A stretch of DNA of 58,571 bases from a virus. Made by a program: the position numbers and the translations under genes. The notes beneath the pieces were generated by a model that searched no databases, was not told where the DNA came from, and was given only the letters and a program-made list of their open reading frames with translations. Where the stretch lies: IMG/VR virus record IMGVR_UViG_3300036886_000519, positions 1 to 58,571 of that record, one strand, 5' to 3'. This document shows positions 1,224 to 57,765 of the stretch, one piece after another (position 1 is the first letter of the stretch; each line of letters starts with the position of its first letter).

Positions 1224-1282
1224 TGTGGAATCCTCATTGGGGGATGCTGTCGAACCCATGAACCCTCTTCTGGGGCGGCATA

Positions 1283-27908: not shown

Positions 27909-28096
27909 AATCGCCCCTCCAGGATTCTCAACTCCGCCGACCAGTCCTTCAGCCCCAGGCACAGACCATGCACATCGGGATTGCCTGCCCGCAGCTCGCG
28001 CTCGATCGCCGCTATCTCCCGACGACAGTGATCAATGTCACGCTGCAACTGGCTGTCGCTCAGCGCTGATGTCGCCGAAGCTTCTTCCATCGCCAT
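27905..28096 (-). CDS. Small helical protein, unknown
   Basis: A 63-residue, acidic, fully helical protein starting MAMEEASATSALSDSQLQ, with a coiled-coil-like core (DIDHCRREIAAIERELRAG). Its first 59 bases overlap the end of the DNA methyltransferase gene in another frame, and its stop overlaps the membrane protein start (ATGA). An AAGGAGG site ten bases before the ATG at 28096 supports translation. The function is unknown; position suggests it works with the following membrane protein. Confidence 0.55.
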   Translation of the reverse strand: MAMEEASATSALSDSQLQRDIDHCRREIAAIERELRAGNPDVHGLCLGLKDWSAELRILEGRL

Positions 28097-29294
28097 CGAG
28101 CGTCGCCTCCTTGCCGCTGAATTCCTGGAAGCGCCGGCAGATTACGTCGCAGTACTTCGGCTCCAGTTCGATGAGCCGCGCCTGGCGGCCGGCCTTCTCG
28201 CACGCGATCAGCGTGGTTCCAGAGCCGCCAAACGGATCGAGCACCGTGTCACGGCCCTTGCTGCTGTTCCTGATGGCGCGCTCGACCAACTCGACCGGCT
28301 TCATCGTCGGGTGCAGGTCGTTGACGTGCGGTTTCTTGATGAACCACACGTCGCCCTGGTCGCGGGCGCCGCACCAGAAGTGCTGCGTGCCTTCCTTCCA
28401 GCCGTAGAGGATCGGTTCGTATTGGCGCTGGTAGTCGGATCGCCCCATCGTGAAGGTATTCTTCGCCCACACGACAAACGTGGACCAATGGCCACCCGCA
28501 TCGCGGAACGCCTTCTGCAGCGTGTGGATCTCTGACGAGGACATGCAGACGTAGATTGCGCCCTTGGTGACAGCCAGCATGTTCACGCAGGCGTCGCGCA
28601 GAAACTGCTCGAAGTCTTCGCCGAGGTCGTCGTTTTTGATTGGCCGTGCTTTCCCGCGGAGCTTATCCTTCATCGTCGCCCCGTAATTCACGTTGTACGG
28701 TGGATCGCAGAAGACCATGTCGGCCAGGCCGCCGGCCAGCACCTTCTCGACGATTTCCATCTGCGTCGAGTCCCCGCAGAGTAAGCGATGGTCGCCCATG
28801 ATCCACACGTCGCCAGGCACTGTGACCACAGCAACCTGCGTCTCGGGGACAGCGTCTTCGTCGGTCAGACCCTCTGTGGTCTCCTCGTCGCCGGCCAGAA
28901 TCGTTTCCAGTTCCTCTTGGGAGAACCCGATCAGGTCGAGATTGAACCCACTGACCTCGAGGTCCTGCAACTCGATGCGCAGCATCTCCTCGTCCCATCC
29001 AGCGTTGAGCGCGAGCTTGTTATCTGCCAGCACCAGCGCGCGCCGCTGCGCTTCGGTCAGATGGTCGAGGACGATCACAGGTACCTCGGTCATCCCGAGC
29101 TTGCGGGCTGCCAACAGGCGGGCGTGGCCGGCGATAATGATCCCATCGCTGCCGGCCAGGATTGGCGAGGTCCACCCGAACTCGGCGATCGACGCCGCGA
29201 TCTGGGCGACCTGCTCGGCACAATGAGTGCGGGCATTCCGGGCGAAAGGAATCAGTTTCTCGACCGGCCACGTCGCCACCTGTAGGTTCGTCAT
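28038..29294 (-). CDS. ParB-like / DNA methyltransferase fusion, DPPY (m6A) type
   Basis: A 418-residue fusion. Residues ~1-110 are a ParB/sulfiredoxin-type N-terminal domain (IPFARNARTH, QVAQIAASIAEFGWTSPI, DGIIIAGHARLLAARKLG). Residues ~160-400 are a beta-class DNA methyltransferase with DPPY at 197-200 (motif IV) preceding DPFGGSGTT at 353-361 (motif I). DPPY is usual for N6-adenine methylation. The start ATG at 29294 overlaps the upstream stop (ATGA). It may modify phage DNA against host restriction or regulate gene expression. No cognate nuclease is adjacent, so it is an orphan enzyme. A paralogue with a different catalytic motif lies at 30238. Confidence 0.9.
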   Translation of the reverse strand: MTNLQVATWPVEKLIPFARNARTHCAEQVAQIAASIAEFGWTSPILAGSDGIIIAGHARLLAARKLGMTEVPVIVLDHLTEAQRRALVLADNKLALNAGWDEEMLRIELQDLEVSGFNLDLIGFSQEELETILAGDEETTEGLTDEDAVPETQVAVVTVPGDVWIMGDHRLLCGDSTQMEIVEKVLAGGLADMVFCDPPYNVNYGATMKDKLRGKARPIKNDDLGEDFEQFLRDACVNMLAVTKGAIYVCMSSSEIHTLQKAFRDAGGHWSTFVVWAKNTFTMGRSDYQRQYEPILYGWKEGTQHFWCGARDQGDVWFIKKPHVNDLHPTMKPVELVERAIRNSSKGRDTVLDPFGGSGTTLIACEKAGRQARLIELEPKYCDVICRRFQEFSGKEATLDGDGRSFGDISAERQPVAA

Positions 29295-29566
29295 GCGTTG
29301 TTGGGGTGCGTGGATTTCTGGAACAGGCCCAGCGCATTGTGCAGATCGACGATCCTGGCGATCATCGGCACAACCACGCTCAGCAGTTTTTCCCAACTGA
29401 ATTGCTTTGCCAGGTCCGCACTTGCGTCGAAGCCGGACTTGACCACGTCGAGCACGAGTTCCAGTTTCTTGTTGCCCTGGCCAGGCAGCGGGATCGCTTG
29501 CTCGACCGCCTGGACGGCTGCCAGGACCAGGGGGAAGATTCGGAGAATGATGAGTAGAGTGTTCAT
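29291..29566 (-). CDS. Small protein with hydrophobic N-terminus, holin-like size
   Basis: A 91-residue protein. Residues 2-21 (NTLLIILRIFPLVLAAVQAV) form a hydrophobic helix that could be a membrane anchor. The sequence EQAIPLPGQGNKKLELVLDVV follows, then a helical region. A second moderately hydrophobic stretch (KLLSVVVPMIARIV) is near the C-terminus. Size and layout would allow a holin, but only one segment is clearly membrane-spanning. The ATG at 29566 starts a coupled pair with the methyltransferase. The function is not established. Confidence 0.5.
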   Translation of the reverse strand: MNTLLIILRIFPLVLAAVQAVEQAIPLPGQGNKKLELVLDVVKSGFDASADLAKQFSWEKLLSVVVPMIARIVDLHNALGLFQKSTHPNNA

Positions 29567-30237: not shown

Positions 30238-31803
30238 TTAGGAAGCCTGACGGCTCCCGTAGAAGGGCGCCGGACCGTGATGCTGAATCCGGCGTGAATC
30301 ACGAAGCCGGGGATTGTCGACCTGCTCCTGCGGTACGCCGCGCGCAGCCGCGACCTCCGAAAGGGGCTGCCCAGTTTCCGCGAGAACGGCTCCCTCGCCG
30401 GCGAGGTTCGCCATGCGCCGCAGGATCACATCGCAGTAGGCCGGACTGATCTCGCACCCGTAGCCGACCCGGGCAAGCACGTGCGCGGCCGCCATGGTCG
30501 TTCCGCTCCCCATGAACGGATCGAAGACGATGTCGCCTGCGTCGGAAAATGCCTTGATGAAGAACTCGGGCAGCGCTCGAGGGAATGGCGCAGAGTGCGA
30601 TCCCTGAGTGCTCTCTGTTGTAGCCTCGATCACGTTGCTCGGCCGCGCAAGGCCCTCATGCCTGCCGTCCATCAGTTTGCGACGCATGTGGCCCCATCCC
30701 TCTGATCCTTGTGGAGGCGACGAGGCTGCTGTCCCACGCGGGCCCGTCCCCAGCAGCCCGCTCCCGGAGTTCGATTTCGGGTTGTCTGGCGAGTAGTCGA
30801 AGCAATCGTCTGAGGGGTGACTCACCGCATCCACACGGAACTTGATTTGCTGCTGGCGGCAGAAGTGGAAGATCGGCTCGAACGCGTTCTTGAAGCGGTT
30901 GCCCCAGCCGCCAGGCACACCGTTATCGGTTTTGCGCCAGCAGAATTCGTCAACAAATCGCCAGCCCCACTGCCGCCGGTGGGCTAACACCAGGTCCATC
31001 ACGTATAGATTCCGCTCGCCTTCATCGGCGTGCGCCTTGATGTTCAGGAAGTAGGATCCGTCCGGTGTCAGCACCGACTCGACGCCGGCCGCCACAGCAC
31101 GGAACCACTCCACGTACTCCTCGGGCGGCACCGGCTTGAACCCGCTCGACGGGTCGTACTCGCGCTGCGTGGCGTAGGGCGGGGACGTGATCGCCACGTT
31201 CGCGCTGGCGCCGGCCATCAACTTCTCGACGGCGGCCTGGTCCCGGCAGTCGCCACAGATCAGACGGTGCGGCCCGATCAACCACACGTCCCCAGGCATC
31301 GTAACCGGCTGCGCGGGAGGTTCCGGAGCCGGTTCCTCCTCGGCGCCGGCGGCTGCCTCTGGTTCCTCGCCGGCCAGCAGCACGCGCAACTCCTCGTCGG
31401 AAAACCCCACCACCGCCAGATCGAACCCATCCATCTCGAGCGACTGCATCTCCTCACGGAGCGTCGCCTCGTCCCACCCCGCGTTCAGCGCCAGCTTGTT
31501 GTCGGCGATTACAAGGGCCCGTTTCTGCGCCGGCGTCAGGTGCGCCAGCACGATGACGGGGACCTCGTCCATCACCAGCTTGCGGGCGGCCAGAAGCCGC
31601 GCGTGGCCGGCGATGATGACGCCTTCGCCGTCCACCAGGATCGGATTCACGAAGCCAAACTCGACGATGGACGCCGCGATCTGCGCTACCTGCTCCGGAG
31701 AGTGAGTCCGCGAGTTCCGGGCGTACGCCAGGAGTCGGCCGGCGGGCCAGATCTCGATGCGCCGCGCCATGGCGGGCGTAATGGCTGCAGGAAGTGTTGC
31801 CAT
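30238..31803 (-). CDS. ParB-like / DNA methyltransferase fusion, SPPY (m4C) type
   Basis: A 521-residue fusion with the same ParB-like N-terminal domain (residues ~15-120: LLAYARNSRTHSPEQVAQIA, GEGVIIAGHARLLAARK) as the 28038 gene. Its methyltransferase half has TSPPY at 206-210 rather than DPPY, the usual mark of N4-cytosine methylation. It ends with a DPFMGSGTT-type motif I. A Pro/Glu-rich linker (~148-168) joins the domains. It is also orphan. The start chosen is ATG at 31803; a GTG at 31860 gives 19 more residues and cannot be excluded. Together the two enzymes could lay down two modifications on the same DNA. Confidence 0.85.
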   Translation of the reverse strand: MATLPAAITPAMARRIEIWPAGRLLAYARNSRTHSPEQVAQIAASIVEFGFVNPILVDGEGVIIAGHARLLAARKLVMDEVPVIVLAHLTPAQKRALVIADNKLALNAGWDEATLREEMQSLEMDGFDLAVVGFSDEELRVLLAGEEPEAAAGAEEEPAPEPPAQPVTMPGDVWLIGPHRLICGDCRDQAAVEKLMAGASANVAITSPPYATQREYDPSSGFKPVPPEEYVEWFRAVAAGVESVLTPDGSYFLNIKAHADEGERNLYVMDLVLAHRRQWGWRFVDEFCWRKTDNGVPGGWGNRFKNAFEPIFHFCRQQQIKFRVDAVSHPSDDCFDYSPDNPKSNSGSGLLGTGPRGTAASSPPQGSEGWGHMRRKLMDGRHEGLARPSNVIEATTESTQGSHSAPFPRALPEFFIKAFSDAGDIVFDPFMGSGTTMAAAHVLARVGYGCEISPAYCDVILRRMANLAGEGAVLAETGQPLSEVAAARGVPQEQVDNPRLRDSRRIQHHGPAPFYGSRQAS

Positions 31804-32085
31804 CTGTTGAGGGGCCCTTCGGCCAACCGTGTCGAACACCGGCGCGGCCAGGGTGACCACCCGCCCTGACCACCCAGTTAAGTGACTCTAACTAGAGACT
31901 TTGTGCCACCTGGCCACCCGCGGCAAATAGTGGCCAGGGAGGACCCAAGATTCGATCCGGCAGTGCCCGTTTGGCGTCGGACGCCACCCGTTGGCGCCCG
32001 GGTGGCCCGTGTTGCGACGTCTGGCTCCGGGTTGGCTGGATGGCCACCCGCCGCCTCGGGCGCGCCTGGCCGCCACTGACCGCCA
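31804..32085. other. 282-base intergenic region with CCACCC repeats
   Basis: No credible gene lies here. It holds five CCACCC hexamers (31857, 31870, 31914, 31984, 32044) and one GGGTGG (32000) within about 195 bases. Two copies sit in the longer form TGGCCACCCG (31911-31920 and 32041-32050). A short palindrome CTCTA-AC-TAGAG lies near 31887-31898. It is upstream of the SPPY methyltransferase gene and could be its control region. Confidence 0.4.
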
Positions 32086-33043: not shown

Positions 33044-33550
33044 ATGGATGAGCCGTTTCGTTTGTTTCGATGGAAGCCCACGCAGGGGAACATTTCTGGA
33101 CGACTCTACACTTGTGCTCGGCCAGGACGCTCGCATGGCAGGCAAGTCAAACAGATTCCAGATGACTGGGTCGATGCCTGGGTACTCGGCATGCCCGCGA
33201 GGGAGCAGTTGTTCATTGTCTCTCTCCTCGGATCGAAGGAGGACGGCAAGAGCGAGTTCAGCTATTACTCCTTTCGAAGCGGCTTCGAAACTCCCGCCCC
33301 GGACCACCGCCCCACCTTGCAGCAATGGCTGGACACGAGGTACGGGTCTGGCCGCTATCAGGTGCTTGAGTTTCCTACCGTCGACCTGAAGCCACTCGCC
33401 CCCGAGACCCTGAGCAACGTGGGTTCCACGATCCGCGCGCTTCTTCTGGACGGCCGGACTGTCGTCTTGGTGGACTCGGGCGGCATCGGGAGAACGGGTA
33501 GAGTCTGTCACTCCCTGGGATTCGTGCAGGTCAGCGATGCACTCGTTTGA
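33044..33550 (+). CDS. Tyrosine-phosphatase-fold protein lacking the catalytic Cys
   Basis: A 168-residue protein read against its neighbours. Near residue 143-152 it has VDSGGIGRTG, which lines up with the phosphatase P-loop HC-x2-G-x-GRTG but has Asp144 where the nucleophilic Cys should be. The preceding strand (GRTVVLV) and following helix (RVCHSLGFV) fit the fold. The rest includes MDEPFRLFRWKPTQGNISGR and QLFIVSLLGSKEDGKSEFSY. It may therefore be a pseudo-phosphatase or a binding domain. The ATG at 33044 is close to GAGGGGG. Its last 20 bases overlap the convergent gene at 33531. The phosphatase comparison is inference from one motif. Confidence 0.55.
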   Translation: MDEPFRLFRWKPTQGNISGRLYTCARPGRSHGRQVKQIPDDWVDAWVLGMPAREQLFIVSLLGSKEDGKSEFSYYSFRSGFETPAPDHRPTLQQWLDTRYGSGRYQVLEFPTVDLKPLAPETLSNVGSTIRALLLDGRTVVLVDSGGIGRTGRVCHSLGFVQVSDALV

Positions 33551-34241
33551 TCCACGGCTGATCAACATCCGGGTTATAGAATCGCGAGCGCGTCTCCATT
33601 GGCGGTGGCCCGATAAGCTCGATGGACTGGCAGGTAACCTCGCCAATCCGGTGCTCGGCGCCGATGTAGTACGCCGCGCCATAGCGGGCGGCGAAGGGCC
33701 GTCGCTCATAACCCTCGCAGAAGTACAGGCTCTCCATGGTCCATCCCAGCGCCAGCGCCTGGTCTCGAATCTCATCTACCAGTTGCTTCGCGCGGGCGAT
33801 GCGTTCGGCTTCGGGGCTGGGCTTCGGGGGGATTGGCTCCGCTCGCTTCGTGCGATCGGACTCCTCAGGCAGCGGCGGCTTGTAGTCGCACGCACGAAAT
33901 GTCCGCACCGCGGCGAGCAGTTGGGCCTCGCTGAAATGCTCGACCGCCCAAGCGTGCACGGCGTTGAAGCGCACGCGCAAATCTTCAAACGCGGCTGCAT
34001 CGAGATGCCCGGTGGTCGCGGCCCTCTTAGCAGCGACCATGCGTGACCGCAGCCAGATGTAATACTCGGGATCGAGCCGCCGGTATACCGTGTCGTTGAT
34101 CTGGAAGTCGCGGGCGAACTGCTCCGGGTTCGCGGTCGTCCACGTCGCGAGGGAAGTAGACACGAACAGGCAATCCCGCGAGTTGTCTTCGGGTGCCTCC
34201 GGCATCAATTTGGCGCACTGCTCCTGTAACTCCATGCTCAT
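33531..34241 (-). CDS. Unknown early-region protein
   Basis: A 236-residue soluble protein without a family that I recognise. Visible features are an N-terminal segment with RDCLFVSTSLATWTTANPEQ, helical stretches (IWLRSRMVAAKRAA, FNAVHAWAVEHFSEAQLLAAV), a basic/acidic linker (SDRTKRAEPIPPKPSPEAER), and a C-terminal block (ALGWTMESLYFCEGYERRP). AGGAGAG precedes the ATG at 34241. It is the last gene of the replication block, directly after the primase-helicase, so a replication accessory role is possible. Confidence 0.55.
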   Translation of the reverse strand: MSMELQEQCAKLMPEAPEDNSRDCLFVSTSLATWTTANPEQFARDFQINDTVYRRLDPEYYIWLRSRMVAAKRAATTGHLDAAAFEDLRVRFNAVHAWAVEHFSEAQLLAAVRTFRACDYKPPLPEESDRTKRAEPIPPKPSPEAERIARAKQLVDEIRDQALALGWTMESLYFCEGYERRPFAARYGAAYYIGAEHRIGEVTCQSIELIGPPPMETRSRFYNPDVDQPWIKRVHR

Positions 34242-34291: not shown

Positions 34292-37200
34292 TCATGGCGG
34301 CTCTTCGCCGATGGTCACCGGCGCGATGGCTGGTCTGGTCGGTTCAATCTCGCCACGGTGTTCGACGTGGGGACGTTGTGGAAACGTGGTGGGGACGTTT
34401 GCGGCCAACGTCCCCACCATTAATGTCCCTTGTTTTGTGTCAGTTGCAGACGCGGTGGGGACGGTGGGGACATTGGTGGCACTTTCAGGCCACCTACTAA
34501 TATTGTTTTCGCTCTCTCCCTCTATATCTTCTATACACACGCGATTTTCTTGCGCGCGAGAATTCCGGGGTACGTCCCCCATGTCCCCAACGTCCCCACC
34601 GCCTCCGTAATCGATTGATTCTATGGGGCCAAACTGGTGGGGACGTGGGTCGGCAAACGTCCCCACCATGTCCCCACCAATGTCCCCACCAAACAAGTCC
34701 AGGAGGTTCGTACTGCGGGAACCAGTTCCGCCGGGGCTATCGCCGCCGTCAGCTAACGCGAGGGCATAAAGCACGCCGGTCTTGTGATTGTTATGGCTGC
34801 TTTGCTTTACCGTGAGCCCGTTGAATACTCGATCACGCTTCGCGGCAAGCGCCTTGCCCAAACGGGTCTGCTGCGAGCGCGCCGAACCGTCTCCACGCAC
34901 GCTGAGCATCAGGTCGCGCTCTTCGCAAAACTGATTCAGTTCGCCAACTTTCTTCGGTTCCTCGCGATATGCCTCCCACCAGGTTCCGGTGAACTCGCGC
35001 CACATCTGACCATCGGTATCCGCCGCTTCGTAGAGTTCGTTCAGATTGCAGAGGAAGCCGGGGATTCCCGCAACCTCTAACACGCCGCCCATGATTCCGG
35101 ACCAGCTTTCGAACGACCCCAGGCGCGTCGCGTGTAAGGGTTTCCCGGCAGAGATCCAGGCTTGAACCACGGTGAGTGCTGCATGGACGAGCGCCGAACG
35201 ATTCTCTCGGGCCCATTCGGTGATCAGTGGATGTTTGAATCCTGCTCTCAGCCACGGCATGTCGATCCTCGGATCAATGCGGAGCCGGATGCAGCGCCGG
35301 CTCATCTCGCCGGATAGCCGCGGGTTATTGCCGGTCATCAGCCAAAGGGCATTGTTCCGGAGGTGCAACATCGTGGATTCGCCCAGGAGCCGGTCCGTCC
35401 ACCACGGCAAGGTCACAACGGATGCCAGCGCGGCTGAATCCAGTTTCCGTTTCTCACTGAGGTTGTCGAGGAGGATGATGGGCCGGCCTGTAATCAGTTC
35501 AGCCGTGATCATCTTCCGAACCTCGTCTTCACTTTCCGGTACAGTCCGTCCTTCGGACGCAGAACCAGTCGAAACGATGCTGATCAAGCTGGCCAGCAAC
35601 CCTTTGCCGGAGCCCTGCGTCGGGGCCTCGATCAGGTGTATCGGAGCTAGGTCGCCAATGATGCGCTGCAGAAAGGGGAGGAGTATTGCGGCGACGGCAT
35701 GAGCGCGATCCGAATCGCTTACAAACGGGAAGTCCCCGAGCAGTTCATCCACTATGAGCCCTCTAGCGTGCGCGATTTGCTCCCGTGAGGGAATGATTGG
35801 AACTTCCGGGATTTCCAACGACTCGTCGGAGAACATCCAGAGCGCGTCGGCGCGATGGTAGCCGGCGGCGATGATCAGCGCGGCGTCTTTTCCGAATGTC
35901 GGGGTTCGAACTACCGATTCCAGCGGCGGGAGCGCCGGATCCGGGTTCACCATCATGTCTCGGGCCGTATCCCTCGATGGCGGCGCAGCGAGCACCGCTT
36001 CCTCGGTCACTCTGAGCCAGTTGGCGCTTCGGGCCAGTATGCCGTACATAGCCGTGTCGCCGAGCGCTTCGATCCGCCCCTGGGTGCCCGTGCCGGCAAT
36101 GCGCACAAGAGCGCCGCCTTTCTGGAAGAGGAACGGCTTATTGGTGATGTCTGGCCCTACTGGCTCGTTAATCGCGTGAATTGCAGTCCAGGCGTCGGCG
36201 ATCACGTCACGCAATTGCCGATTGTTGACCTGGATGCCTCGCAGCGGCTGTGGTTCCGGATCTGCGACCGGCGCGGTCGCGGCGTTCCCCCTCGGACTGC
36301 CGCCGCCGACAACACCAGTTTGGGTCGCGCGCCGAGGGCGAGCGATTTCCACGACCTTCAACTGCTTCCGAAGCGTGGTGACCGGCAGCCGAAGCTTCCC
36401 ACACCGCGACTGAATTAGCCTGAGGTACCGATCCTGTTCAATGGGGGCGAGCCGACCGACCTCCGATAGGATCGGCTCGAGTATCCGGCTGAGATCAGCA
36501 TCCGGAACGTCGGTACTGAGCTTTGAGATGGCCAGTTCCAGCGGGGTCTGGGCTGCGTCGAGGATACCTTCGAAATCGGCCGCCGTCTTCCCCGAGGCGA
36601 AGAACTCGTTAACGTCAATCTTGGCGTCGGCCAGTAGCGCTTCGGCTTCGGCGCTTCCGCCTGGCAATGCACCCAGCTTCTCCCGAGCCGTACGCTGCTT
36701 CTCGGCGAGAGGCAAAACCGCCACGCGTGTCGCAATCCCGTGAGCGGAGAGAATCCGCGCGGTCTTCAACGCGCCCTGCATCCCCGCCTCGGATATCTCG
36801 TTGTCCTGGCAGATGTAGACCGTTTTCACGCCGGCGAGTTTTGGCAGCAACCGTTCCCAGTCGGCCTCGCGGATCTGCACCGTTACAGGCGACACCACCG
36901 GGAATCCGTGCTCCATCAGGGAAATGCAATCCGTGACCCCTTCAGTGATGATGACCCGCTCGGGCCGCGCAAGCAGCACATCCTCGTTGTAGAGGACGTC
37001 ATTCCGGATGTACGGCGAGACGTGGCTGTTGTTGCGGTCGTTGCGAATCGCCAGTTTCTTGTACTTCGACTTCTCCCATTCCTGATCCGGCGTCCAGGGC
37101 GTGCGCCGTCCGATCATGAAGACGACGTGCCCGCGACTCCAATATGGGAAGACGATCCGGCCATCGAAAAAGGGGAGCAGTCCGTCCTGCGCCGTGGGCT

Positions 37201-37828
37201 TGAAGACGGAGGTGGCCGTCAGCTCACGCATGGTGAAGGCGCCAGGCCCGTCCATCAACGTGCGCGCCACGCTGGGCTCGCCATTTTCCGCGTACCCGAT
37301 CTGCAACCGGCCGATCGTCTCCTCGCTGATTCCGTATTTCCCCCGAAACCAGGCGAGGACCTCCGGGTTCCCGACGAGCCGCTGGTGATACACACCCGCA
37401 GACGCGGTCAGCACCTCACGCACGCGAAGCCTGATCTGGTGAGCTTCCTCGGCCTGTTCCGGACTGCCGGAAGCGAGCGTCGACAAAGGCGGCAGTCGAA
37501 CGCGTGCCGCCAGGAAGTCGCGAGCCTGCCGGTGGGAGTCCGGCATTGAGCCAGACTGCCCGCGGGTGACCACGCCGAACCGGACGAACTCAACCAACTG
37601 CAGCACATCGCCGCCGGTACCACAGGCGTGGCAAAACCAGCCCTGCTTGTCGAGCCAGACATGAAGCGAGCGGTGCGACTGGCTCCGGTGGTTCGGGCAA
37701 TCGCAGTACAGGGTCTGTCGCGATTCCTGCGTAATGCGGCCGCCGAGGAGTTCGCGGCCTATCTCGCCAATGTCCACATCGGTGACCTGCCGGTAGTAAT
37801 CGTGGATATCTACCGGAAGCGCAGTCAC
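34292..37828 (-). CDS. Primase-helicase, DnaG-like N-terminus fused to ATPase
   Basis: A 1178-residue replication protein. Residues ~40-75 form a CHC2-type zinc site (C44-x2-H47 and C66-x2-C69). Residues ~290-345 are a TOPRIM domain (VIITEGVTD, then TVYICQDNE), the catalytic core of DnaG-type primases. Residues ~695-900 are a P-loop ATPase with Walker A at 735-743 (APTQGSGKG) and Walker B near 780 (PIILLDNLSE), presumably a replicative helicase. The last ~140 residues are low-complexity (GGDIGGDMVGTF, GDVGDMGDV, NVPTVPT), dictated by DNA repeats. The start is GTG at 37828 with GGAGG eight bases upstream, overlapping the RecD2 stop. It is likely the phage's initiator of replication. Confidence 0.88.
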   Translation of the reverse strand: MTALPVDIHDYYRQVTDVDIGEIGRELLGGRITQESRQTLYCDCPNHRSQSHRSLHVWLDKQGWFCHACGTGGDVLQLVEFVRFGVVTRGQSGSMPDSHRQARDFLAARVRLPPLSTLASGSPEQAEEAHQIRLRVREVLTASAGVYHQRLVGNPEVLAWFRGKYGISEETIGRLQIGYAENGEPSVARTLMDGPGAFTMRELTATSVFKPTAQDGLLPFFDGRIVFPYWSRGHVVFMIGRRTPWTPDQEWEKSKYKKLAIRNDRNNSHVSPYIRNDVLYNEDVLLARPERVIITEGVTDCISLMEHGFPVVSPVTVQIREADWERLLPKLAGVKTVYICQDNEISEAGMQGALKTARILSAHGIATRVAVLPLAEKQRTAREKLGALPGGSAEAEALLADAKIDVNEFFASGKTAADFEGILDAAQTPLELAISKLSTDVPDADLSRILEPILSEVGRLAPIEQDRYLRLIQSRCGKLRLPVTTLRKQLKVVEIARPRRATQTGVVGGGSPRGNAATAPVADPEPQPLRGIQVNNRQLRDVIADAWTAIHAINEPVGPDITNKPFLFQKGGALVRIAGTGTQGRIEALGDTAMYGILARSANWLRVTEEAVLAAPPSRDTARDMMVNPDPALPPLESVVRTPTFGKDAALIIAAGYHRADALWMFSDESLEIPEVPIIPSREQIAHARGLIVDELLGDFPFVSDSDRAHAVAAILLPFLQRIIGDLAPIHLIEAPTQGSGKGLLASLISIVSTGSASEGRTVPESEDEVRKMITAELITGRPIILLDNLSEKRKLDSAALASVVTLPWWTDRLLGESTMLHLRNNALWLMTGNNPRLSGEMSRRCIRLRIDPRIDMPWLRAGFKHPLITEWARENRSALVHAALTVVQAWISAGKPLHATRLGSFESWSGIMGGVLEVAGIPGFLCNLNELYEAADTDGQMWREFTGTWWEAYREEPKKVGELNQFCEERDLMLSVRGDGSARSQQTRLGKALAAKRDRVFNGLTVKQSSHNNHKTGVLYALALADGGDSPGGTGSRSTNLLDLFGGDIGGDMVGTFADPRPHQFGPIESIDYGGGGDVGDMGDVPRNSRAQENRVCIEDIEGESENNISRWPESATNVPTVPTASATDTKQGTLMVGTLAANVPTTFPQRPHVEHRGEIEPTRPAIAPVTIGEEPP
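34367..34687. repeat. Iteron-like GTCCCC/GGGGAC array inside the primase gene
   Basis: Twelve exact copies of GTCCCC or its complement GGGGAC lie in 321 bases: 34369, 34391, 34410, 34457, 34466, 34574, 34583, 34592, 34639, 34659, 34670 and 34682, with one GTCCCT variant at 34425. The fuller consensus is (A/C)(C/T)GTCCCCACC. Two arms, TGGTGGGGACGTT (34387-34399) and its exact complement (34407-34419), form a 13-base perfect inverted repeat around a 7-base loop. The copies occur in all codon phases and both orientations, so selection seems to act on DNA. A replication origin bound by the phage's own proteins is the leading idea. Confidence 0.75.
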
Positions 37829-40017
37829 TGCCGTGCCTCCGGGTGGAGCAGGAAGGAGAGAAAGGTGTTGCGGCGGTCCACCTGGCGTTTGGCGGCGCAG
37901 TTGTCGATGCCCCACCGGTCCCCGAGAAGAATCACGGAGTCTGTCGCGCGCGTTACTGCGGTGTACAGCAGATTGCGGTGGTGCATGAAGGAATGCGACT
38001 TGTGGGCGATCACCACCGCGCAGGGGAATTCCGATCCCTGCACTTTGTGGATCGACGTCGCATAGGCCAACTGGATATTGCCGAGCGCATCGCTGCCACT
38101 CTTAATCTCTACCCGTCGGCCATCGAAATCGATGGAAAGACTGCCGTCCGGCGTGGCGTCAACCACGACGCCCATCGCGCCGTTCATAACGCCCAATTCG
38201 TAGTCGTTCTTCGTCTGGATCACCTTGTCGCCCGGATATGGCCGCGCGCTGTGGCCAGCCTCGACGGTAGGCACATCCACCCCGAACAACTTCTGCTGCA
38301 AGAGGCGCTGCAACTCGATATTCAACTCCACTGTGCCGAGCGGGCCTTTGTGCGTCGGCGTGAGCACTTGCACTTCACGAATCAGGTCGTAACCGAACCG
38401 CTCCCACAGCACCTCCTCGAAGAGAAGCAGCAGCATGCGCCGCACATCCTCGCGGTCCGTGAATTTGTCGATGACGTACCAAGGCCGGCGCGCGCCGACG
38501 AACGAATCCGACGTGGGCCGCACCTCGCCGTTGAGGATGGCTGTGGAGTTCTCCTTCAGAACACCGGCCTGGCGGATGATCCGGGTGAGCACAGTCGTGG
38601 GGATCGCAACCGACCGCACCAGGTCTCGCAGAAGGTTACCTGGGCCCACCGGCGGCAACTGGTTGTGGTCCCCGACGAGCACCACGGCGGTGCGCGTAGG
38701 GTCCACGGCCTGGAACAACCGCCAGGCGAGGGCGATATCCACCATCGAGACTTCGTCCACGACGAGAATGTCCGCTTCAATCGGATTCAGTGCATCCCGC
38801 GAATACGTGTTGCCGTTGAAACCCAACAACCGATGAATGGTGCTTGCTTCATGGCCAACTACTTCCTCGAGGCGTTTTGCAGCCTTTCCAGTGGGCGCCG
38901 CGAGCACGATCTTCAACTCCAATCGTTCGGCGATGCTGGCGATGGTCGATACCGCGTATGTCTTGCCGCTACCGGCGCCGCCGGTCATGAGCGAGATGGA
39001 AAAGTTGAGGGCGTTCCTGACCGCATCGCGCTGCTCGGGATTCAATTCGCCGCCCTCAGCATCGAGAAGATGCTCTATGTCGACGACAGCGTGCGGGCTG
39101 CGCCGACCGGCGGTCTGAAGGACTTCGGCGAGTTCCGTCTCCATCCGGTGAATCTCCGGATCGGCAACTACCAACCGCTCGAACGGCTGCGAGACAAGCC
39201 GCCCCTCGGCAATCAGAGCTTCGAGATGCCCTTCAATCACGTCGCGGCTGTCGAGCGTGTCCATCACCAGGAGCGTGTTGGCGCGGTCAAGCAAGTCTTC
39301 GTACTCGACCCAGCAGTCCCCGTCATCGAGGGCGGCCAGCACGCAGTAATGGAGCCCGGCGCGAAGCCGCGAGGGCAGGTCCTTGGGCGTTCCCATCTTG
39401 CGGGCGATCTTGTCGACCCGTTTGAAGCCGTAACCGGCTATTTCCCGCATCAGCACATAGGGATCGTTGTCCAGGATCGGCACGACCTGGCTGCCAAATT
39501 TGCCCACGAGCGTAGTTACCTGGTAATGGGTGAGCCCGAAGCGGGACAGGTAGGTCATCGCGGCGTTGAAGTCGCTGTTGGCGATCCAGATCCGTTGGAG
39601 ATCCAGGATCGCCTCCACCGGCGCCTTCGCGATTGCGGCCACGGCCGCGGGCTGGCTGCGGATCGCCGCGTCGAAGCGCGCGCCGAAATGGTCGGCGATC
39701 AGCCGCGCTTTGGCCGGGCCGATGCCTTTCACGTCCGGGTGATTTGCCAGGAAGTTTGCCAGCCCGTCCGCGTCCATCTCTTGATCGAAGCCCATGCAGT
39801 CGGCCGCGAATTGCCGTCCGTACTTCGGATGGTTGGTCCACTGGCCTTCCAGACGAACCGCGTCATTCTCCCTGGCAAACACCTTCCCGGCAAAAGTGAT
39901 GAGATTACCGTCCGATGTACGGAGGCGCCCGGCGCTGAATGCCGCGCCCGAGTAAAAGACTATTTCCACGACGCCGCGGAGGGAACATCGGACCTCTGAG
40001 GTTGCCGCCTTCGTCAT
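37825..40017 (-). CDS. RecD2-like DNA helicase
   Basis: A 730-residue SF1B helicase of the RecD2/ExoV type. The N-terminal OB-like part is followed by a helix-hairpin-helix (FLANHPDVKGIGPAKARLI, ~90-108), as in stand-alone RecD2. Helicase motifs are complete: Walker A GGAGSGKT (346-353), PTGKAA (~375), DEVS (421-424), GDHNQLPPVGPG, and near the C-terminus ATSIHKVQGSEF and LLYTAVTRA. It unwinds DNA 5'-3' in the family and is often linked to replication or recombination. The ATG at 40017 overlaps the ERCC4 nuclease stop (ATGA), and its own stop overlaps the primase start, so nuclease, helicase and primase form one translational unit. Confidence 0.9.
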   Translation of the reverse strand: MTKAATSEVRCSLRGVVEIVFYSGAAFSAGRLRTSDGNLITFAGKVFARENDAVRLEGQWTNHPKYGRQFAADCMGFDQEMDADGLANFLANHPDVKGIGPAKARLIADHFGARFDAAIRSQPAAVAAIAKAPVEAILDLQRIWIANSDFNAAMTYLSRFGLTHYQVTTLVGKFGSQVVPILDNDPYVLMREIAGYGFKRVDKIARKMGTPKDLPSRLRAGLHYCVLAALDDGDCWVEYEDLLDRANTLLVMDTLDSRDVIEGHLEALIAEGRLVSQPFERLVVADPEIHRMETELAEVLQTAGRRSPHAVVDIEHLLDAEGGELNPEQRDAVRNALNFSISLMTGGAGSGKTYAVSTIASIAERLELKIVLAAPTGKAAKRLEEVVGHEASTIHRLLGFNGNTYSRDALNPIEADILVVDEVSMVDIALAWRLFQAVDPTRTAVVLVGDHNQLPPVGPGNLLRDLVRSVAIPTTVLTRIIRQAGVLKENSTAILNGEVRPTSDSFVGARRPWYVIDKFTDREDVRRMLLLLFEEVLWERFGYDLIREVQVLTPTHKGPLGTVELNIELQRLLQQKLFGVDVPTVEAGHSARPYPGDKVIQTKNDYELGVMNGAMGVVVDATPDGSLSIDFDGRRVEIKSGSDALGNIQLAYATSIHKVQGSEFPCAVVIAHKSHSFMHHRNLLYTAVTRATDSVILLGDRWGIDNCAAKRQVDRRNTFLSFLLHPEARQ

Positions 40018-40463
40018 GCTCCCCACCTCGTGTGCGCGGCGAGAAGATACGCCTGCACGAAGTGACAGGCCGCCTGACGGCTGGAACAGAAGAACACCGG
40101 GATGCGGTGATCGAGGATGATGGCGAGCGCGCTGCCGAGCACTGCGTTCGGATGGGAGCCACCCCGGTAACGTCCTTGCAGAACTTCCAGGAGGCCTGCC
40201 TCGACGACCACGCAGGCAGCGCGATAGCCAGCCAGTTTCGAGAGTTCGCGTCGGAAGCGGGCTCGCTGGTGAATAACCGTGGAAACGAAATCGTCGAGCG
40301 TTTTCCGTTCCACGGCGACCTCACCCTCCAGGCCTGCTACCGAGTAATCCCCGGCTGGCAGAGCGCGGCGTTCCAGCACCACCAGCCGGGAATCGAACGA
40401 AAACGGCTCCTGCTCCCTCGTGTCGGCGATGAGCGTGACCAGCGCCGGGCTAGAACGGGACAA
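40014..40463 (-). CDS. ERCC4-type structure-specific nuclease
   Basis: A 149-residue single-domain nuclease of the XPF/ERCC4 fold. The active-site pattern is clear: an Asp in LIADTREQEP, the LPAGDYSVAG segment, and VERKTLDDF, which matches the family's ERK-x3-D (here E-R-K-T-L-D-D). It lacks the helicase and helix-hairpin-helix domains of XPF. In phages such proteins act on branched DNA in recombination or genome resolution. The start is TTG at 40463, with AGGAGG 12 bases upstream; no ATG fits before the conserved region. It overlaps both neighbours. Confidence 0.85.
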   Translation of the reverse strand: MSRSSPALVTLIADTREQEPFSFDSRLVVLERRALPAGDYSVAGLEGEVAVERKTLDDFVSTVIHQRARFRRELSKLAGYRAACVVVEAGLLEVLQGRYRGGSHPNAVLGSALAIILDHRIPVFFCSSRQAACHFVQAYLLAAHTRWGA

Positions 40464-48223: not shown

Positions 48224-51200
48224 TTACGCGGGTGCCCCTACCACCTCGACAACCTCAGCGATCACCCGCACCTGCCCTTCGTCCGTACCACTCAGGATGA
48301 TCGGCGCGAAATCGGGATTAACGGGTTTCAGAGTGATCCTCGTGTGGCGCCAGGACTCGCCGGCCTTCGCCTTCTCGCTATCGTAGCGCTTGACGGTGTA
48401 GCGCTCGCCGGTCTCCGAGTCCGTGGCGTCACGCAGTTGGACGAGGACGGTCTTGCCCTGGCGGGTGCCGGTGACCGGGGCGGCGAAGAGGCAGTAGGAG
48501 CCGTCGGGAATGGTGGGCTCCATCGACTTGCCGACAATCTGGGCGACGAACATGCCCGGGCGCAGGCGGTGCCGGGTGTCGACGGCGACCCACTCCCAGC
48601 CTTCGTCCTCGACGTGCTGCGGATCGCCAAAGGCGCCCGCGGCGGCCTTGAGCGGCAAGAGTGGCACGCAGGTTATGTAGCGCTCCTCGGGTCGGCCTCC
48701 AGCGAGCCGCAGCCCAGACGGTAGTGCCCCAGCAGGCAATACCGAGGCTCCTGCTCGCGGAGCGCTCTGCAGTCGTCGATAAGCCTCTGCCGCCATCCAT
48801 GTGGTCACAATCTTCTGGAACGGCTCGTCGTTCATGAACCGGACGAAGATCTCCTCGTTCTGATCCATGCGCTCGACGAAGAGCCTGTCCAGCAGATTCT
48901 TAAACACCAACTCGAACTTGTCCTCCGGGTTCACCGCGGCGGCCTGCCGCAGCCCCTCGTCGGCAACCGCCGCCTGGACGATTTGATCGAAGAAGAGCTG
49001 GTCGGCTTGGTTGAAGTCCGTGCCGAACCGCTCGTTGACGATCTCGATGAGCTGCGAGAGCGGCACCGGTTGTTCCCGAACCAACCCGCTGCCTACCTCG
49101 GTGGGACCGTCCAGGGGGCGCGCGCTGCCGTCCTGCAGCGAGATCGAGCCCTCGCTGATCTTCTGGAGGCGGTAGTACTCGAGTCGCACCTCATCGTCGA
49201 ACAGGTAGGCCGCCCCACCCCTCCGTCGCGGCAGCTTCGCCGAAAGATGGCGCAGAAACACGTACAGGCGCTCAAGGTCCGAGTCCTGATAAGGGACCAC
49301 TTGGCTCAGGAAGCCATAGAGGTTGCGAAAAGCCAGTACTTTCCCGCGCCACAACTCCGCCTCCTCCTCGTTGTCCCTCTGGAGCACTGTGAACCGCGAT
49401 ACCGCGGGATCGAGCGCCGCATTCATAGCCTGATGATCCTGCGCACTCTGGCGCTGCCTGGGCTTGAAGTAAACGGTGCAGAAGCGTTCGACCTCCTCGC
49501 CGAGGTAAACGCCCGAAGCATCCAGCTCCGCCCTGATGGCGTACATGCGCGCGGGATCGACCTCTTCGCCCATCTCAGCGCCTTCGTAGAACGTCTTGAA
49601 CGCCTCCCTGATCTCCTCGCGATCGTTGACAAAGTCGAGAACGAATGTGTCCTCCTTGAGAAGGTGGGTCCGGTTCAGCCGTGAGAGCGTCTGCACGGCC
49701 TGGATGCCCGCGAGCCGCCTATCCACAAACATCGTGTGCAGGAGCGGCTGGTCGTACCCGGTCTGGTACTTCTCCGCCACCAGCAAGACGTGGTACTCCT
49801 GTGTCGCGAACTTCTCCGGAAGCTCCTTCTCGCGAATGCCGAGGTTCATCCTCTCCTCGGTGTAGGTCACGTCCGGGAGCTTGTCGTCCAACACCGTCCC
49901 AGAGAAGGCAACCAGTGTCTTAATCGGGTAGCCCTTCTCCTGGATGTAACGGTCAAAGCTCTGCTTGTAGCGCACGGCTTCCAGGCGCGAGCCAGTGACT
50001 ACCATGCCCTTGGCCCGACCGCCGATCTTGTGCCGAGTGACCGCCTGGAAGTGCTCGACCATGACCTGGGTTTTCTGGGCAATGTTGTGCGGGTGCAGGC
50101 GCATGAAGCGGGCGAGCGCCCGCGCGGCCTTCTTGCGCTCGACGTTGGGATCGTCCTCACAGGCCTTGAGCAGCTTGAAGTAGGTCGCGTAGGTCGTGTA
50201 GTGCTTGAGGACGTCGAGGATGAACTCCTCCTCGATCGCCTGGCGCATGGTGTAGCGGTGGGTTGGCTGTCCGTCGCGCCCGAACACCGCGAGCGTCTTG
50301 TGCTTGGGTGTGGCGGTGAAGGCGAAGAAGCTCAGGTTCGCCTGCCGGCCGCGCTTGGCCATACTGCGAAAGAGCTCTTCCATTTCATCGCAACCTTCCT
50401 CTGCCGCGCGCTTGTTCGCTTCTTCCCGTAAGCCCTCGCCGCCGAGGACTTCCTTGAGGTCGGTGGCGGACTCGCCGCCCTGCGAACTGTGGGCCTCGTC
50501 GATGATCACAGCACGACGCCGCGTTGGCAGAGCACCAGCCCCATTCGCACCCTTCTCCTCAGCAATCTTACGCATCTGGCGCAACACCACCGGGAACTTC
50601 TGAAGCGTCGTGATAATGATCGGCACTGCCTTCTCGAGTGCCTCGGCGAGCTGTCGCGAGCTCTCGTCGATCTTCTGCACCACACCGCGCTTGTGCTCGA
50701 ACTGGTAGATCGTGTCCTGGAGCTGTTTGTCGAGCACCACGCGGTCTGTCACCACGATCACGCTGTCGAAGACCCGCTCGTTGGCCATGTCATGGAGACA
50801 GGCGAGGCGGTGCGCAAGCCAGCCGATCGTGTTGCTCTTTCCACTTCCAGCCGAGTGCTCGACGAGATAGTTGTGCCCCACGTCCTCCCGCCGGGCCGAG
50901 TCGACCAGCAGGCGGACGGCCTCGAGCTGGTGGTAGCGGGGGAAGATCATCGACTCGACGTTCACTTTGCGCCCCTGGTCGTCGCGCTTCTCTTCAATCT
51001 GCAAATGCATGAAACGCGCCAGGAGATCAAGAAAACTGTCTCGCTGCAGCACCTCTTCCCAAAGGTATGCCGTGCGGTAGGTGCGCCCGGCAGGATCGGG
51101 AGGGTTGCCGGCGCCGCCGTCGCAGCCCTTGTTGAAGGGCAGGAAGTGCGTCGCCCCGCCGGCTAGCCGCGTGGTCATCAGCACTGACTCAGTATCGACG

Positions 51201-51775
51201 GCGAAGTGGACGAGAGTGCGCCGCTTGAAATCGAAGATCTGTTCCCGAGCGTCGCGGTCCTGCTTGTACTGCCGACGCGCTTCCTCGACGGTCTGGCCGG
51301 TGAGAGGGTTCTTGAGCTCCAGCGTAACGACGGGGATTCCGTTCAGGCTCAACGTGACATCGATCGACTTCTCCGAACGCGGCGAGTAGTGTAGTTGGCG
51401 GGTGAGCCCCAGGCGGTTCGCAGCATAGCGGGCCTCGAGTTCCGGGTTCAACCCGTGCGCCGCCTTAAAGAACGCCACATGGAGTGTCCGCCCGTAACAC
51501 TTGAAGCCGTGGCGCAGGGTAGCGAGGGACCCATTCACATCCATCCACTTGCACAGGTCGGTGAGGATCTGGTTGCCGGTCTTGTCGCCGTGCAGCGCCT
51601 CCAGTTTCGCCCACTCCTTTTGCTGCGTCTCTCGGATGAACGCCAGCACCGTCGCCGGGAAGATCGCGCGCTCACGATCGAAGCCTTCGCAGGCAACGCA
51701 CGCATACCCGTTCTGGAGTAGATGCGCCTCGATGACCGTCTCGAAGGCGCACTCCCAGTAGCGAGGCTCAATCAT
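48224..51775 (-). CDS. hsdR: Type I restriction HsdR with C-terminal S24 peptidase domain
   Basis: A 1183-residue motor/nuclease subunit. The PD-(D/E)XK nuclease site is D139 and E153-L-K155 ([19 protein letters not shown]). The translocase has Walker A at ~307-314 (HSAGSGKS), DEAH at 426-429, and FTATP further on. The last ~140 residues are not normal for HsdR: they form a complete S24 (LexA/CI/UmuD) domain, with Ser1084 ([13 protein letters not shown]) and Lys1129 (YTVKRYD). Ala1046-Gly1047 lies 37 residues before the Ser, close to LexA spacing (34). The ATG at 51775 has GAGGAT upstream and overlaps the PtuB stop. It is the last gene of the defence operon. Confidence 0.92.
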
Positions 51776-52422
51776 GATCCCATCCTCATCAGTCGTTGCG
51801 CCAGCCACCAGACCGCTACCTGACAATAGGGAGCAAGGTGGCCACCGCCCGCGATGTACCGGTCTCGTTCACGCTCAAGCCGCGCTCGCGGCACCGGGCC
51901 ATGAGTTTTTTCCTTCTCGCGCTTCCACCATTCGGAAATGGCGGTGAGGACCCCTTTCCTGTTGTTCTTTAACAGGGGCAGGTTAAGATTCAGTACTACG
52001 TTCAACTGCGCATCGAACTCGGCATCGTCCGATTTGACCGAGCCATCGATCTCATAGCGCACGCGCGCCTCGATATGGTGTGCCGGGTCGGCGGGATTCC
52101 ACCGGAGATCGCGGTCACCCTTCCTCGTATCGCAATACTGGGAATCCCACGGCTGCCCCCTTCCACCCAGGCAGGCTCCGAGCAAATTGCGGTAGTTGAG
52201 CTGTTCGCCCGGGGAGCGGGATTGACTTCGCCAGTGCTCGATCTTCATGGTAGCTGGCCCGTCATGAACCCGTCCCAAGCAGTAGCAGCATAGCCCCCGC
52301 TGCTCGGCCACCAAAGCGTGCCTTAGGTCGTCCTTCTCCGCATAGTTGTCATAGTCGGAGTGCGGAGTGAGCCGATGCGTCGTCAGACTCGGCGGCTCGG
52401 GCCCCTTCGTGATCGCCCTCAT
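51772..52422 (-). CDS. ptuB: PtuB-like HNH nuclease (Septu effector, TIGR02646 type)
   Basis: A 216-residue HNH nuclease. It starts [20 protein letters not shown], the N-terminal signature of the family, and has a [10 protein letters not shown] zinc knuckle (C45-C48), IEHWRSQ with catalytic-type H63, [10 protein letters not shown], and YCDTRKGD (C97, D98). In Septu, PtuB is the effector paired with the ATPase PtuA. The gene starts inside the ptuA stop (ATGA) and its own stop overlaps the hsdR start (ATGA), so all three are translated together. It sits between the specificity subunit and the HsdR motor, an unusual arrangement. Confidence 0.85.
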
Positions 52423-53672
52423 TCCTTACCCTCGATAAAGTCGAGGAGAGTTCGGGCACGTGTCACTTCTGGATCGTCTTCCCCGAGGCGGGCCGTTAAG
52501 GCGGCCAATAACTCGCGTGCGCGCTCGAAATGCTGCTTTCCGGTCTCCTGGGAGAGTTCTGAGAGCAGTTGGTTCACCTCCTGTGCTCGCGGGTCTGCAT
52601 GCATGATCTCCTCCAGCACCCGGCTGGAGTCGACGCCGAAGGAGTGGGTCGGCGAATAGACCTGGCCGTCCGCGATGATCTGGATCCGGTCGTGCTCCAC
52701 TTCACCGATGACCTGGGGCGAATGTGTCGTTGCGATGAACTGGCACCGGGGAAACGCTGTGGTCAGGTTGCGCACAATCTGCCGCTGCCACTTAGGATGC
52801 AGGTGCAGGTCGATCTCGTCGATGAGGACAACCGCCTCCGCCTCTGCGGCCGGATCCGCCATTGCCGGGTTGGCCTGCACCAGTCGGCGTGTCAGGTCGA
52901 GCACCAGAGCAAGCACGCCGCGCTCGCCATCGGAAAGCTGCCGCACGCGGAGCGTCCTGCTGCCCCGATCGATCAACAGCATCTGGCGATCCTCGCCACC
53001 CACACGCAGGTTGGCATAGCCTGGAAGGAACCGCGCCACGGCGTCCTCAAAGGCGGCGAGCGCACGACCCGCTACCGGACGTTCCGCCTTCAGTGCCTCC
53101 TGGACCCGCATCCAGGCTGAGAACTCTCCGAGCCTAAGCTCGCGGCTCGTGAACGCGTCCGCGAACGCCGCAGTGATTCCTCCGGCTGCCACGCTTTTTC
53201 TGGGAGTTCGCTCCCACGGTACTGCCCGACTGGTCGAGAAGAGGACCGCAAGAGGCCGCCCGCCGGGCTCGTTCCCGCTGACGGGTAAAGGCGGCGTGCC
53301 GATGTAATCAGCCTTTTCCGGTGTCTCGTGGACCTCCTTCCGCGGCATGCCTGCCATTTTCTCTTGGGCTGCGCTGGCCTCACGCGGTCTGTGGATTAGG
53401 TAGCGGTACTCCGTGTCACCGATCTGTACGCCGCACTCGACATCCAAGGCATCGGCTCCAACGCGAATATCGTCTGCGGTGAACGATTTGCCCGGTATCC
53501 GCAGCCGGTTCACGTCCTTGACGACCGCCAGCAAGCACACGCTAAGCGCGTCGAGCAAGCTCGTCTTGCCGACGCCGTTGACGCCCACGACCAGGTTGAA
53601 TCCGGGCTGGAATCGGAACTCAGCCGCGTCGATGGCCCGAAGGTTCGCGAGCTTCAGCGTAGTGGCTCTCAT
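52419..53672 (-). CDS. ptuA: PtuA-like AAA/ABC-type ATPase (Septu)
   Basis: A 417-residue ABC/OLD-type ATPase. Walker A is GVNGVGKTS (30-38); the signature is LSDGE (246-250); Walker B is VVLIDEID (281-288); the H-loop is THSP (316-319). Its C-terminus is helical. There is no TOPRIM domain, which separates it from OLD nucleases and fits PtuA. ATPases of this type sense the phage and control the HNH partner. The start ATG at 53672 overlaps the hsdS stop. An in-frame extension upstream has no ribosome site and lies in hsdS. Confidence 0.85.
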   Translation of the reverse strand: MRATTLKLANLRAIDAAEFRFQPGFNLVVGVNGVGKTSLLDALSVCLLAVVKDVNRLRIPGKSFTADDIRVGADALDVECGVQIGDTEYRYLIHRPREASAAQEKMAGMPRKEVHETPEKADYIGTPPLPVSGNEPGGRPLAVLFSTSRAVPWERTPRKSVAAGGITAAFADAFTSRELRLGEFSAWMRVQEALKAERPVAGRALAAFEDAVARFLPGYANLRVGGEDRQMLLIDRGSRTLRVRQLSDGERGVLALVLDLTRRLVQANPAMADPAAEAEAVVLIDEIDLHLHPKWQRQIVRNLTTAFPRCQFIATTHSPQVIGEVEHDRIQIIADGQVYSPTHSFGVDSSRVLEEIMHADPRAQEVNQLLSELSQETGKQHFERARELLAALTARLGEDDPEVTRARTLLDFIEGKE

Positions 53673-57282: not shown

Positions 57283-57765
57283 TCACATGTATGGTGAACA
57301 ACCGCTATTGTCTCTCACAGACGGACTCGGATGCATTGGTTGGACGTCGTTCCACAACTTGCGCTGGCGGATCCAAACGACTTGAGCACAGATGCTGCGT
57401 AAAAAGCGTTCATTGAGCCCGGAAATTGCACCCTCCGGCGAGAGCAGGTGCTCCTGGATGTCGGGAGCGAGCATGAGCAGATTCATGATTTGGGTGATCC
57501 TGGCCCGTGTCACGTACCCGAGTCGCGCCAGGTCTGCGTAGTCGCGGACTTCTCCACGCTCGACCATCTCCTGGAACTTGATGGCGAGGGCCATCAGTCT
57601 GGTAATCCGAGGAATTCGCGGGCGATCGCCCGAGTTGCTGAACGGGTCGTGCTGCGTTCTGCTGCCCTCGCGGCGACACTGGCGCACTGGCAGCGTCACC
57701 TCCACCTGAATGGCCCCGTCCGCGCGCGGACCTGGGCCGGCCATGGTCAGCACTTTCCTTGGCAT
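57283..57765 (-). CDS. HTH protein linked to the serine recombinase
   Basis: A 160-residue protein. The N-terminal ~50 residues are basic and Pro/Gly-rich. Then LALAIKFQ-like MALAIKFQEMVERGEVRDYA, DLARLGYVTRARITQIMNLL is a clear HTH, followed by MLAPDIQEHLL and a C-terminal segment (FLRSICAQVVWIRQRKLW). This HTH type is commonly encoded right after large serine recombinases. It overlaps the end of the recombinase gene by 19 bases; its ATG at 57765 has AGGAGCCAAGGA upstream. It may be a directionality or control factor. Confidence 0.75.
   Translation of the reverse strand: MPRKVLTMAGPGPRADGAIQVEVTLPVRQCRREGSRTQHDPFSNSGDRPRIPRITRLMALAIKFQEMVERGEVRDYADLARLGYVTRARITQIMNLLMLAPDIQEHLLSPEGAISGLNERFLRSICAQVVWIRQRKLWNDVQPMHPSPSVRDNSGCSPYM

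Follow-up and report, generated by a model that had tools for sequence, protein, structure and literature searches.

The segment 34367-34687 of the window, by which we mean the whole 58,571-bp stretch of viral DNA that was analysed, is very probably the replication origin of this phage; its iterons, situated in the 3' end of the primase-helicase gene, would be bound by the predicted winged helix of that very protein. This reading is built on selection on the DNA word, a conserved dyad, concerted change of the word among relatives, co-variation of the word with three protein residues and homology to an initiator that is proven and acts on an origin arranged in the same way; from these we infer that the array works as an origin in this phage, that the initiator binds it, that the centre melts, and that two helicases are loaded and priming proceeds both ways. 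A preliminary description of the DNA had proposed an origin embedded in an initiator gene, and the proposal is now well supported by a synonymous-codon null, more than 160 dyad arrays, the co-variation of a helix and the pWTY27 homologue.

The 58,571-bp virus contig contains integrase, portal, major head/protease and probable tape-measure genes, and because of these its source is a tailed, probably temperate phage. Its closest relatives in bacterial assemblies are found in Acidobacteria, notably in Bryobacterales and Solibacter bins. The primase-helicase is built, in this order, of a CHC2/Toprim primase N-half, an AAA+-type helicase C-half, a predicted C-terminal winged helix and a fast-evolving tail with the array, which lies wholly inside the reading frame 34292-37828. 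The open frame itself reaches a GTG at 37915, while relatives start at the equivalent of 37828. Matches were found to Pfam DNAG_N, Toprim_2 and, weakly, Zn_ribbon_DnaG, as well as to phrog_47 and phrog_10537. The features of the initiator and its surroundings are as follows.

34292..37828, minus strand, primase-helicase initiator gene (Pfam, PHROG and relatives)
34757..34966, minus strand, predicted winged-helix DNA-binding domain, residues 955-1024 counted from 37828 (AlphaFold2)
34841..34882, minus strand, predicted recognition helix, residues 983-996 (model helix 99-112 and co-variation scan)
34877-34879, 34865-34867 and 34853-34855, minus strand, codons of residues 984, 988 and 992, respectively (from coordinates)
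33531..34241, minus strand, 236-aa protein, neighbour on the array side (no Pfam, PHROG or PDB match)
37825..40026, minus strand, RecD2-like helicase, adjacent upstream gene of the replication cluster (Pfam and PHROG matches)

An AlphaFold2 model of a 140-residue segment (34757-35176), made with an 83-sequence alignment and having a mean pLDDT of 87, contains helices at 77-86, 91-94 and 99-112 and strands at 121-126 and 136-139. Foldseek against the PDB gave no significant match for either model, so the term winged helix rests on predicted secondary structure; sequence searches of the PDB gave no match.

By an exact-word count of the whole window, exactly 12 GTCCCC/GGGGAC hexamers are present in 34367-34687, which reproduces the earlier count of twelve in 321 bases, in both orientations and in different codon phases. 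Other 321-bp stretches of the window outside the array hold at most two copies each, and there is no overall enrichment of the word (34 found, 44.7 expected window-wide). When all hexamers were compared, GGGGAC/GTCCCC was the densest in any 321-bp stretch of the window. The twelve copies occur on either strand and occupy each of the three codon phases (0,0,2,1,0,0,0,0,0,2,0,1), and the peptide underneath changes (GGD, VGT, RPH, GDV, VPT) while the DNA word stays. We kept the tail peptide fixed and drew codons from the phage's usage in 20,000 simulations; the mean number of copies was then 1.6 and the highest 7, against the 12 observed. This bears out the earlier suggestion of selection on DNA, and the view that the word itself is under selection can be regarded as well supported at the sequence level. 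The individual sites, all located by word search, and the central spacer, supported by its GC content, are listed here.

34368..34374, plus strand, iteron TGGGGAC, left outer
34390..34396, plus strand, iteron TGGGGAC, left outer
34410..34416, minus strand, iteron TGGGGAC, inverted, 19 bp from the preceding copy
34456..34462, plus strand, iteron TGGGGAC, left inner pair, 9-bp step
34465..34471, plus strand, iteron TGGGGAC, left inner pair
34472..34573, no strand, central spacer, presumed melting region
34574..34580, minus strand, iteron GGGGGAC, right inner triple, 9-bp steps
34583..34589, minus strand, iteron TGGGGAC, right inner triple
34592..34598, minus strand, iteron TGGGGAC, right inner triple
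34638..34644, plus strand, iteron TGGGGAC, inverted, 47 bp outside the inner triple
34659..34665, minus strand, iteron TGGGGAC, right outer triple
34670..34676, minus strand, iteron TGGGGAC, right outer triple
34682..34688, minus strand, iteron TGGGGAC, right outer triple

Read on the plus strand, the array has the layout FF-R-47-FF / 108 / RRR-47-F-20-RRR, a mirror image about 34522. Measured from start to start, the hexamers of the left half follow the order 34369>, 34391>, 34410<, 47 bp, 34457>, 34466> (9-bp step), those of the right half the order 34574<, 34583<, 34592< (9-bp steps), 47 bp, 34639>, 20 bp, 34659<, 34670<, 34682<, and the 108-bp centre separates the two half-arrays. A degenerate TGGAAAC at 34379-34385, between the first two left outer iterons, restores an 11-bp ladder at that place. 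The inverted repeat reported at 34387-34419 does have perfect 13-base arms (34387-34399 and 34407-34419) and a 7-base loop, but it is not a separate element: it consists of two facing iterons 19 bp apart. GC content is 0.49 at 34475-34570 compared with 0.61 for the whole primase-helicase gene.

All 14 near-full-length relatives (L003-L015 and L018, 59-93% identity) have an array at the same place. The words in this comparison were TGGGGAC, GGGGAAC, TGGAGAC, GGAGACT, TGGGGAT and TCGGGA; site positions and orientations are kept while flanks and peptide drift, and a change of word between relatives hits nearly all sites of an array together. The preliminary description expected the hexamer to be kept while the amino acids drift, which is the case among near relatives only, the hexamer being replaced at nearly all sites elsewhere. 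Relatives that share only the N-half and have two other helicase halves also possess arrays, of the GTTCCAGT type and of the GTAGAAAGG/TACCGAAAG type, and these are situated mostly outside the helicase gene.

The facing word matches could also be compensatory changes in a DNA or RNA hairpin that is itself selected, given the perfect 13-base arms at 34387-34419 and the fact that facing words are complementary by definition. However, same-strand copies at 9-bp steps change jointly with the facing ones, yet cannot pair together. Inspection of the alignment showed that complementarity of facing pairs in relatives extends barely past the word and that pairing is not conserved independently of it, as it should be in a hairpin or attachment element, and a hairpin would leave the co-variation with protein residues described below unexplained. 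We regard it as extremely improbable and rejected it.

To see how widespread such arrays are independently of any given word, any 7-mer repeated within 420 bp was sought in all 271 fetched loci and in locally shuffled controls. At least six copies were found in 220 of the 271 loci, and the controls never exceeded five. With identical arrays merged and near-identical ones kept (some loci from different queries are the same contig), there are 170 distinct arrays next to related initiator genes in viral contigs and prophages, 165 of them with a centre and 154 with two or more pairs of mirrored sites. Prophages of cultured strains are among them, such as L209 in Bryobacterales F-183 and L216 and L245 in Desulfosarcina alkanivorans. 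GC content of the centre averages 0.516 versus 0.616 in the flanks and is the lower one in 148 of the 165 arrays. The centre lies at most 250 bp from the stop of the helicase half in 76 of 85 loci with the window's helicase type and in all 24 with the second type, g2C. No array of at least six copies was present near the gene in the cultured phages RcXuper, DSS3P8, RpAliso, phiAsp2 and CcrColossus, which encode a distant homologue. Other plasmids and one actinobacterial genome record with this helicase have arrays just past the stop codon. The array is inside the gene for one helicase family and just downstream in others (all g2C arrays and most of those of the third type, g3C, are outside), which makes the peptide incidental. 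The tail that follows the DNA-binding domain is free to vary, which explains the overlap of array and gene in the window. Selection on peptide repeats of a low-complexity tail, with the DNA word as a by-product, could appeal to the recurrence of GGD, VGT and VPT, but the use of three phases and both strands, the synonymous-codon null, the drift of tails around unmoved sites and the intergenic arrays reduce its probability practically to nothing, and we rejected it, the null having already refuted it.

Several further observations were made on these loci. In g3C loci the array can sit 1-3 kb downstream of the initiator, and the array at L028:8726-9040 is still immediately before the gene of the 236-aa protein. 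L227, L228, L230, L234, L235 and L245 have an extra site pair on one side only, at a distance from the centre of about 360-370 bp, or of 447-456 bp in L228. A DNA-pattern scan for the window's own word gave five hits, and those inspected lie near integrase genes. Clusters of GTGGGGAC located at the 3' ends of tyrosine recombinase genes or beyond them (L030:1914-2648 and L034:2592-2809) have no dyad centre and are possibly other origins or arm sites of the recombinase. In the Methanosarcinales-associated virus vir525 (L279:3995-4328) a TGCGGGTA array stands directly after a phrog_10537 gene and, by its sequence, extends the system to archaeal viruses.

The protein that reads the array is almost certainly the primase-helicase itself, through its C-terminal domain, as far as can be judged from comparison of sequences. 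The 236-aa neighbour was favoured at first, as it always follows the array in near relatives; it stands directly after the array in most relatives that have the N-half, including cases with the primase at a distance of 1.3 kb. However, it was detected in only 6 of the 45 array loci that combine the window's helicase half with another primase half, and we dropped it because the other 39 lack it. The common primase N-half was also discarded as the reader since the word class follows the helicase C-half. We compared residue differences with word differences in sliding 20-residue windows, allowing for overall protein distance, and the window that tracked best was in the C-terminal domain in three separately aligned helicase families (about 975-1000 in the window's family, 341-365 and 374-395 of 395 in g2C, 532-558 of 559 in g3C). 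The peak at the recognition helix is modest among well-sampled windows, with a partial correlation of 0.34 followed by 0.26 at 845-868, and a scan by columns is for this reason the stronger evidence. It compared every variable helicase residue with every word position in 84 sequences (effective number 62) of the window's family, using a word alignment made without protein information. The three best of 3,564 pairs of residue and base were 988 with base 16 (z 6.9), 992 with base 17 (z 6.2) and 984 with base 15 (z 5.7); these residues are one turn apart on one predicted helix and pair with consecutive bases. That the 236-aa protein or some other phage protein reads the array instead is very unlikely, given that the word class tracks the helicase type and not common neighbours, and that the best co-varying residues are in the helicase C-terminal domain in a scan which covered the initiator protein.

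At residue 988, Thr or Ser occurs with C in 43 sequences and with T in none, while Ile, Val or Met occurs with T in 32 and with C in 4 (Fisher p 4e-18, a value that treats related sequences as separate). A fairer number than this and the raw counts is given by independent contrasts on a tree from the helicase part without the C-terminal domain: of 15 pairs differing in residue class, 13 show the predicted change of base and two do not fit, one exception being L083, whose words are mixed (9 C and 5 T). The helicase parts of L076 (Thr988, GTGAACG) and L072 (Ile988, GTGAATG) are nearly identical. At residue 992 Lys goes with G, and Ser, Asn, Thr, Gln, Ile and Met go mostly with C; at residue 984 Arg and Lys go with A, Gln and His with G. 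In loci fetched later, which share no 60-mer with the first set and include many close relatives among themselves, the rule for 988 held in 58 of 58, of which 55 have Thr with C and only three Ile with T, and the rule for 992 in 31 of 33; Ile or Met992, a class for which nothing had been predicted, came with C in 27 of 27, and Gln or His984 tracked G. The Ile988 arrays L083, L086 and L087 contain both C and T words, the Thr988 arrays L081 and L085 only C words, and turnover of the word in progress is the simplest reading of the mixed ones. It seems reasonably likely to us that residues 984, 988 and 992 specify three consecutive bases of each iteron, and that after a change of one residue a dozen iterons are converted one by one, also within coding sequence. 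The mixed arrays would then be intermediates, and origin specificity would evolve stepwise and could be predicted from sequence across many phages and plasmids. A test of the code on the plasmid relatives was dropped because their recognition helices are too diverged for safe alignment.

By its features the window would belong, as a functional class, to the initiator-helicase iteron origins of the pWTY27/PICI/P4 type. Short repeats stand in two sets flanking an AT-rich region beside the initiator; the initiator has a helicase ATPase and a C-terminal DNA-binding domain, of which the fold is predicted, and co-variation points to recognition of the repeats by this domain. RepA of the Streptomyces plasmid pWTY27 is homologous to the helicase half of the window's initiator (34.9% identity, 80% of the query), and its array of iterons GTGGGAAC, directly 3' of repA, is laid out as FF-16-R-40-FF/72/RR-40-F-16-RR, the same FF-R-FF/RR-F-RR dyad as in the window. 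RepA binds its iterons specifically, as shown by EMSA and DNase I footprint, the minimal replicon consists of repAB with the adjacent iterons, replication is bidirectional, and the dyad was interpreted by the authors as a stem-loop for RepA (PMC3583192). Unlike the window, pWTY27 is a 14-kb plasmid with the primase on a separate gene, repB, and with intergenic iterons; its spacings are 16/40/72 whereas those of the window are about 20/47/108, and the recognition-helix sequences differ.

The Pri-Rep-ori modules of PICIs and SaPIs are similar to the window in that two iteron sets, with an AT-rich region between them, follow the initiator immediately on its 3' side, and in PICIs, as with the repeats and initiator of pWTY27 (PMC3583192), initiator and repeats support autonomous plasmid replication (PMC6092414). 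The C-terminal domain of SaPI Rep is described as recognising iterons directly downstream of its gene (PMC7581432). In the PICI element of E. coli CFT073 the steps measure 9 bp, the inverted pairs 23 bp and the spacers 45 bp. The window differs from PICIs in its Toprim primase half, its different helicase half and its coding array, and PICIs are small phage satellites whereas the 58.6-kb record encodes portal, major head/protease and probable tape-measure proteins; the window was accordingly not taken for a satellite of this kind.

Phage P4 has a primase-helicase initiator, alpha, with a winged-helix origin-binding domain at its C-terminus. The type I sites of its ori (FFF-22-R-43-FF) are arranged as in the half-array of the window, and crr is directly 3' of alpha. 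P4 is nevertheless a satellite phage in which ori and the distant crr are both outside the alpha gene and half-arrays are not mirrored, while the window has a single dyad array, and a P4-like element was therefore rejected. The modules of the array in the window recur in P4 ori and in an E. coli PICI ori that is functional (PMC6092414).

In phage lambda too the origin is inside the gene of its initiator, O. The likeness to the window is positional only (homology was judged by family searches): lambda O is neither helicase nor primase and recruits the host helicase, and lambda iterons are near-palindromic and do not form two facing half-arrays.

The initiator might bind the array as an operator, copy-control or handcuffing site while the true origin is elsewhere. 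Plasmid iterons can also regulate copy number, P4 divides its sites between ori and crr, and no clear GC-skew switch marks the array in the window, skew being uninformative here. Against this, the record contains no dense array other than that at 34367-34687, the centre of this array is AT-richer, the 3' end of a gene is an unusual location for an operator, and the array follows the initiator directly on its 3' side, a position shared with PICIs and pWTY27, in which plasmid replication depends on this region (PMC6092414, PMC3583192). We find such a regulatory role of the array unlikely.

Under the origin reading, about 12 good copies of TGGGGAC(G/A)T, together with degenerate ones, would be the iterons, in two mirror-image half-arrays around the AT-richer centre. 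The C-terminal domain of the initiator would bind TGGGGACGT DNA specifically, and initiator molecules would occupy each half-array through the recognition helix, as the co-variation suggests. The assemblies on the two half-arrays, opposite in orientation, would work on the AT-rich centre and be loaded as a pair of opposed helicases, as the analogy with pWTY27 and SaPI Rep suggests, and the attached Toprim primase domain would prime bidirectional synthesis. In evolution, changes of the word would go along with changes at 984, 988 and 992 in the recognition helix.

Initiator-helicase iteron origins are already known as a kind. According to the literature searched, what is new is their large-scale presence in full-size temperate phages, the overlap with the coding sequence of the initiator, the mirror-image form kept through wholesale replacement of the word, and a residue-to-base code that was predictive on loci fetched later. 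Database searches miss the origins of most environmental phages because the repeated word differs in each lineage; here layout and the recognition helix of the initiator identify such origins. One origin architecture links P4, PICIs, the actinomycete plasmid type and full-size temperate phages, and it can be written over coding sequence. A joint change of specificity in the initiator and a dozen sites becomes directly testable with near-identical pairs differing at 988 and with arrays of mixed words.

Some other features of the record should also be mentioned. Integrase-family genes are present at both of its ends (255-1322, minus strand, phrog_1; 57747-58568, minus strand, phrog_95), and attachment regions may lie at or near the ends of the record. 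Two N6_N4_Mtase DNA methylases at a short distance from each other (28038-29396 and 30238-31860, minus strand) each have an N-terminal ParB_N-like domain. Large genes at 48224-56940 (minus strand), with helicase-like phrog_3830, phrog_8323 and phrog_2668 of unknown family and DNA methyltransferase-like phrog_34860, are possibly a defence cluster.
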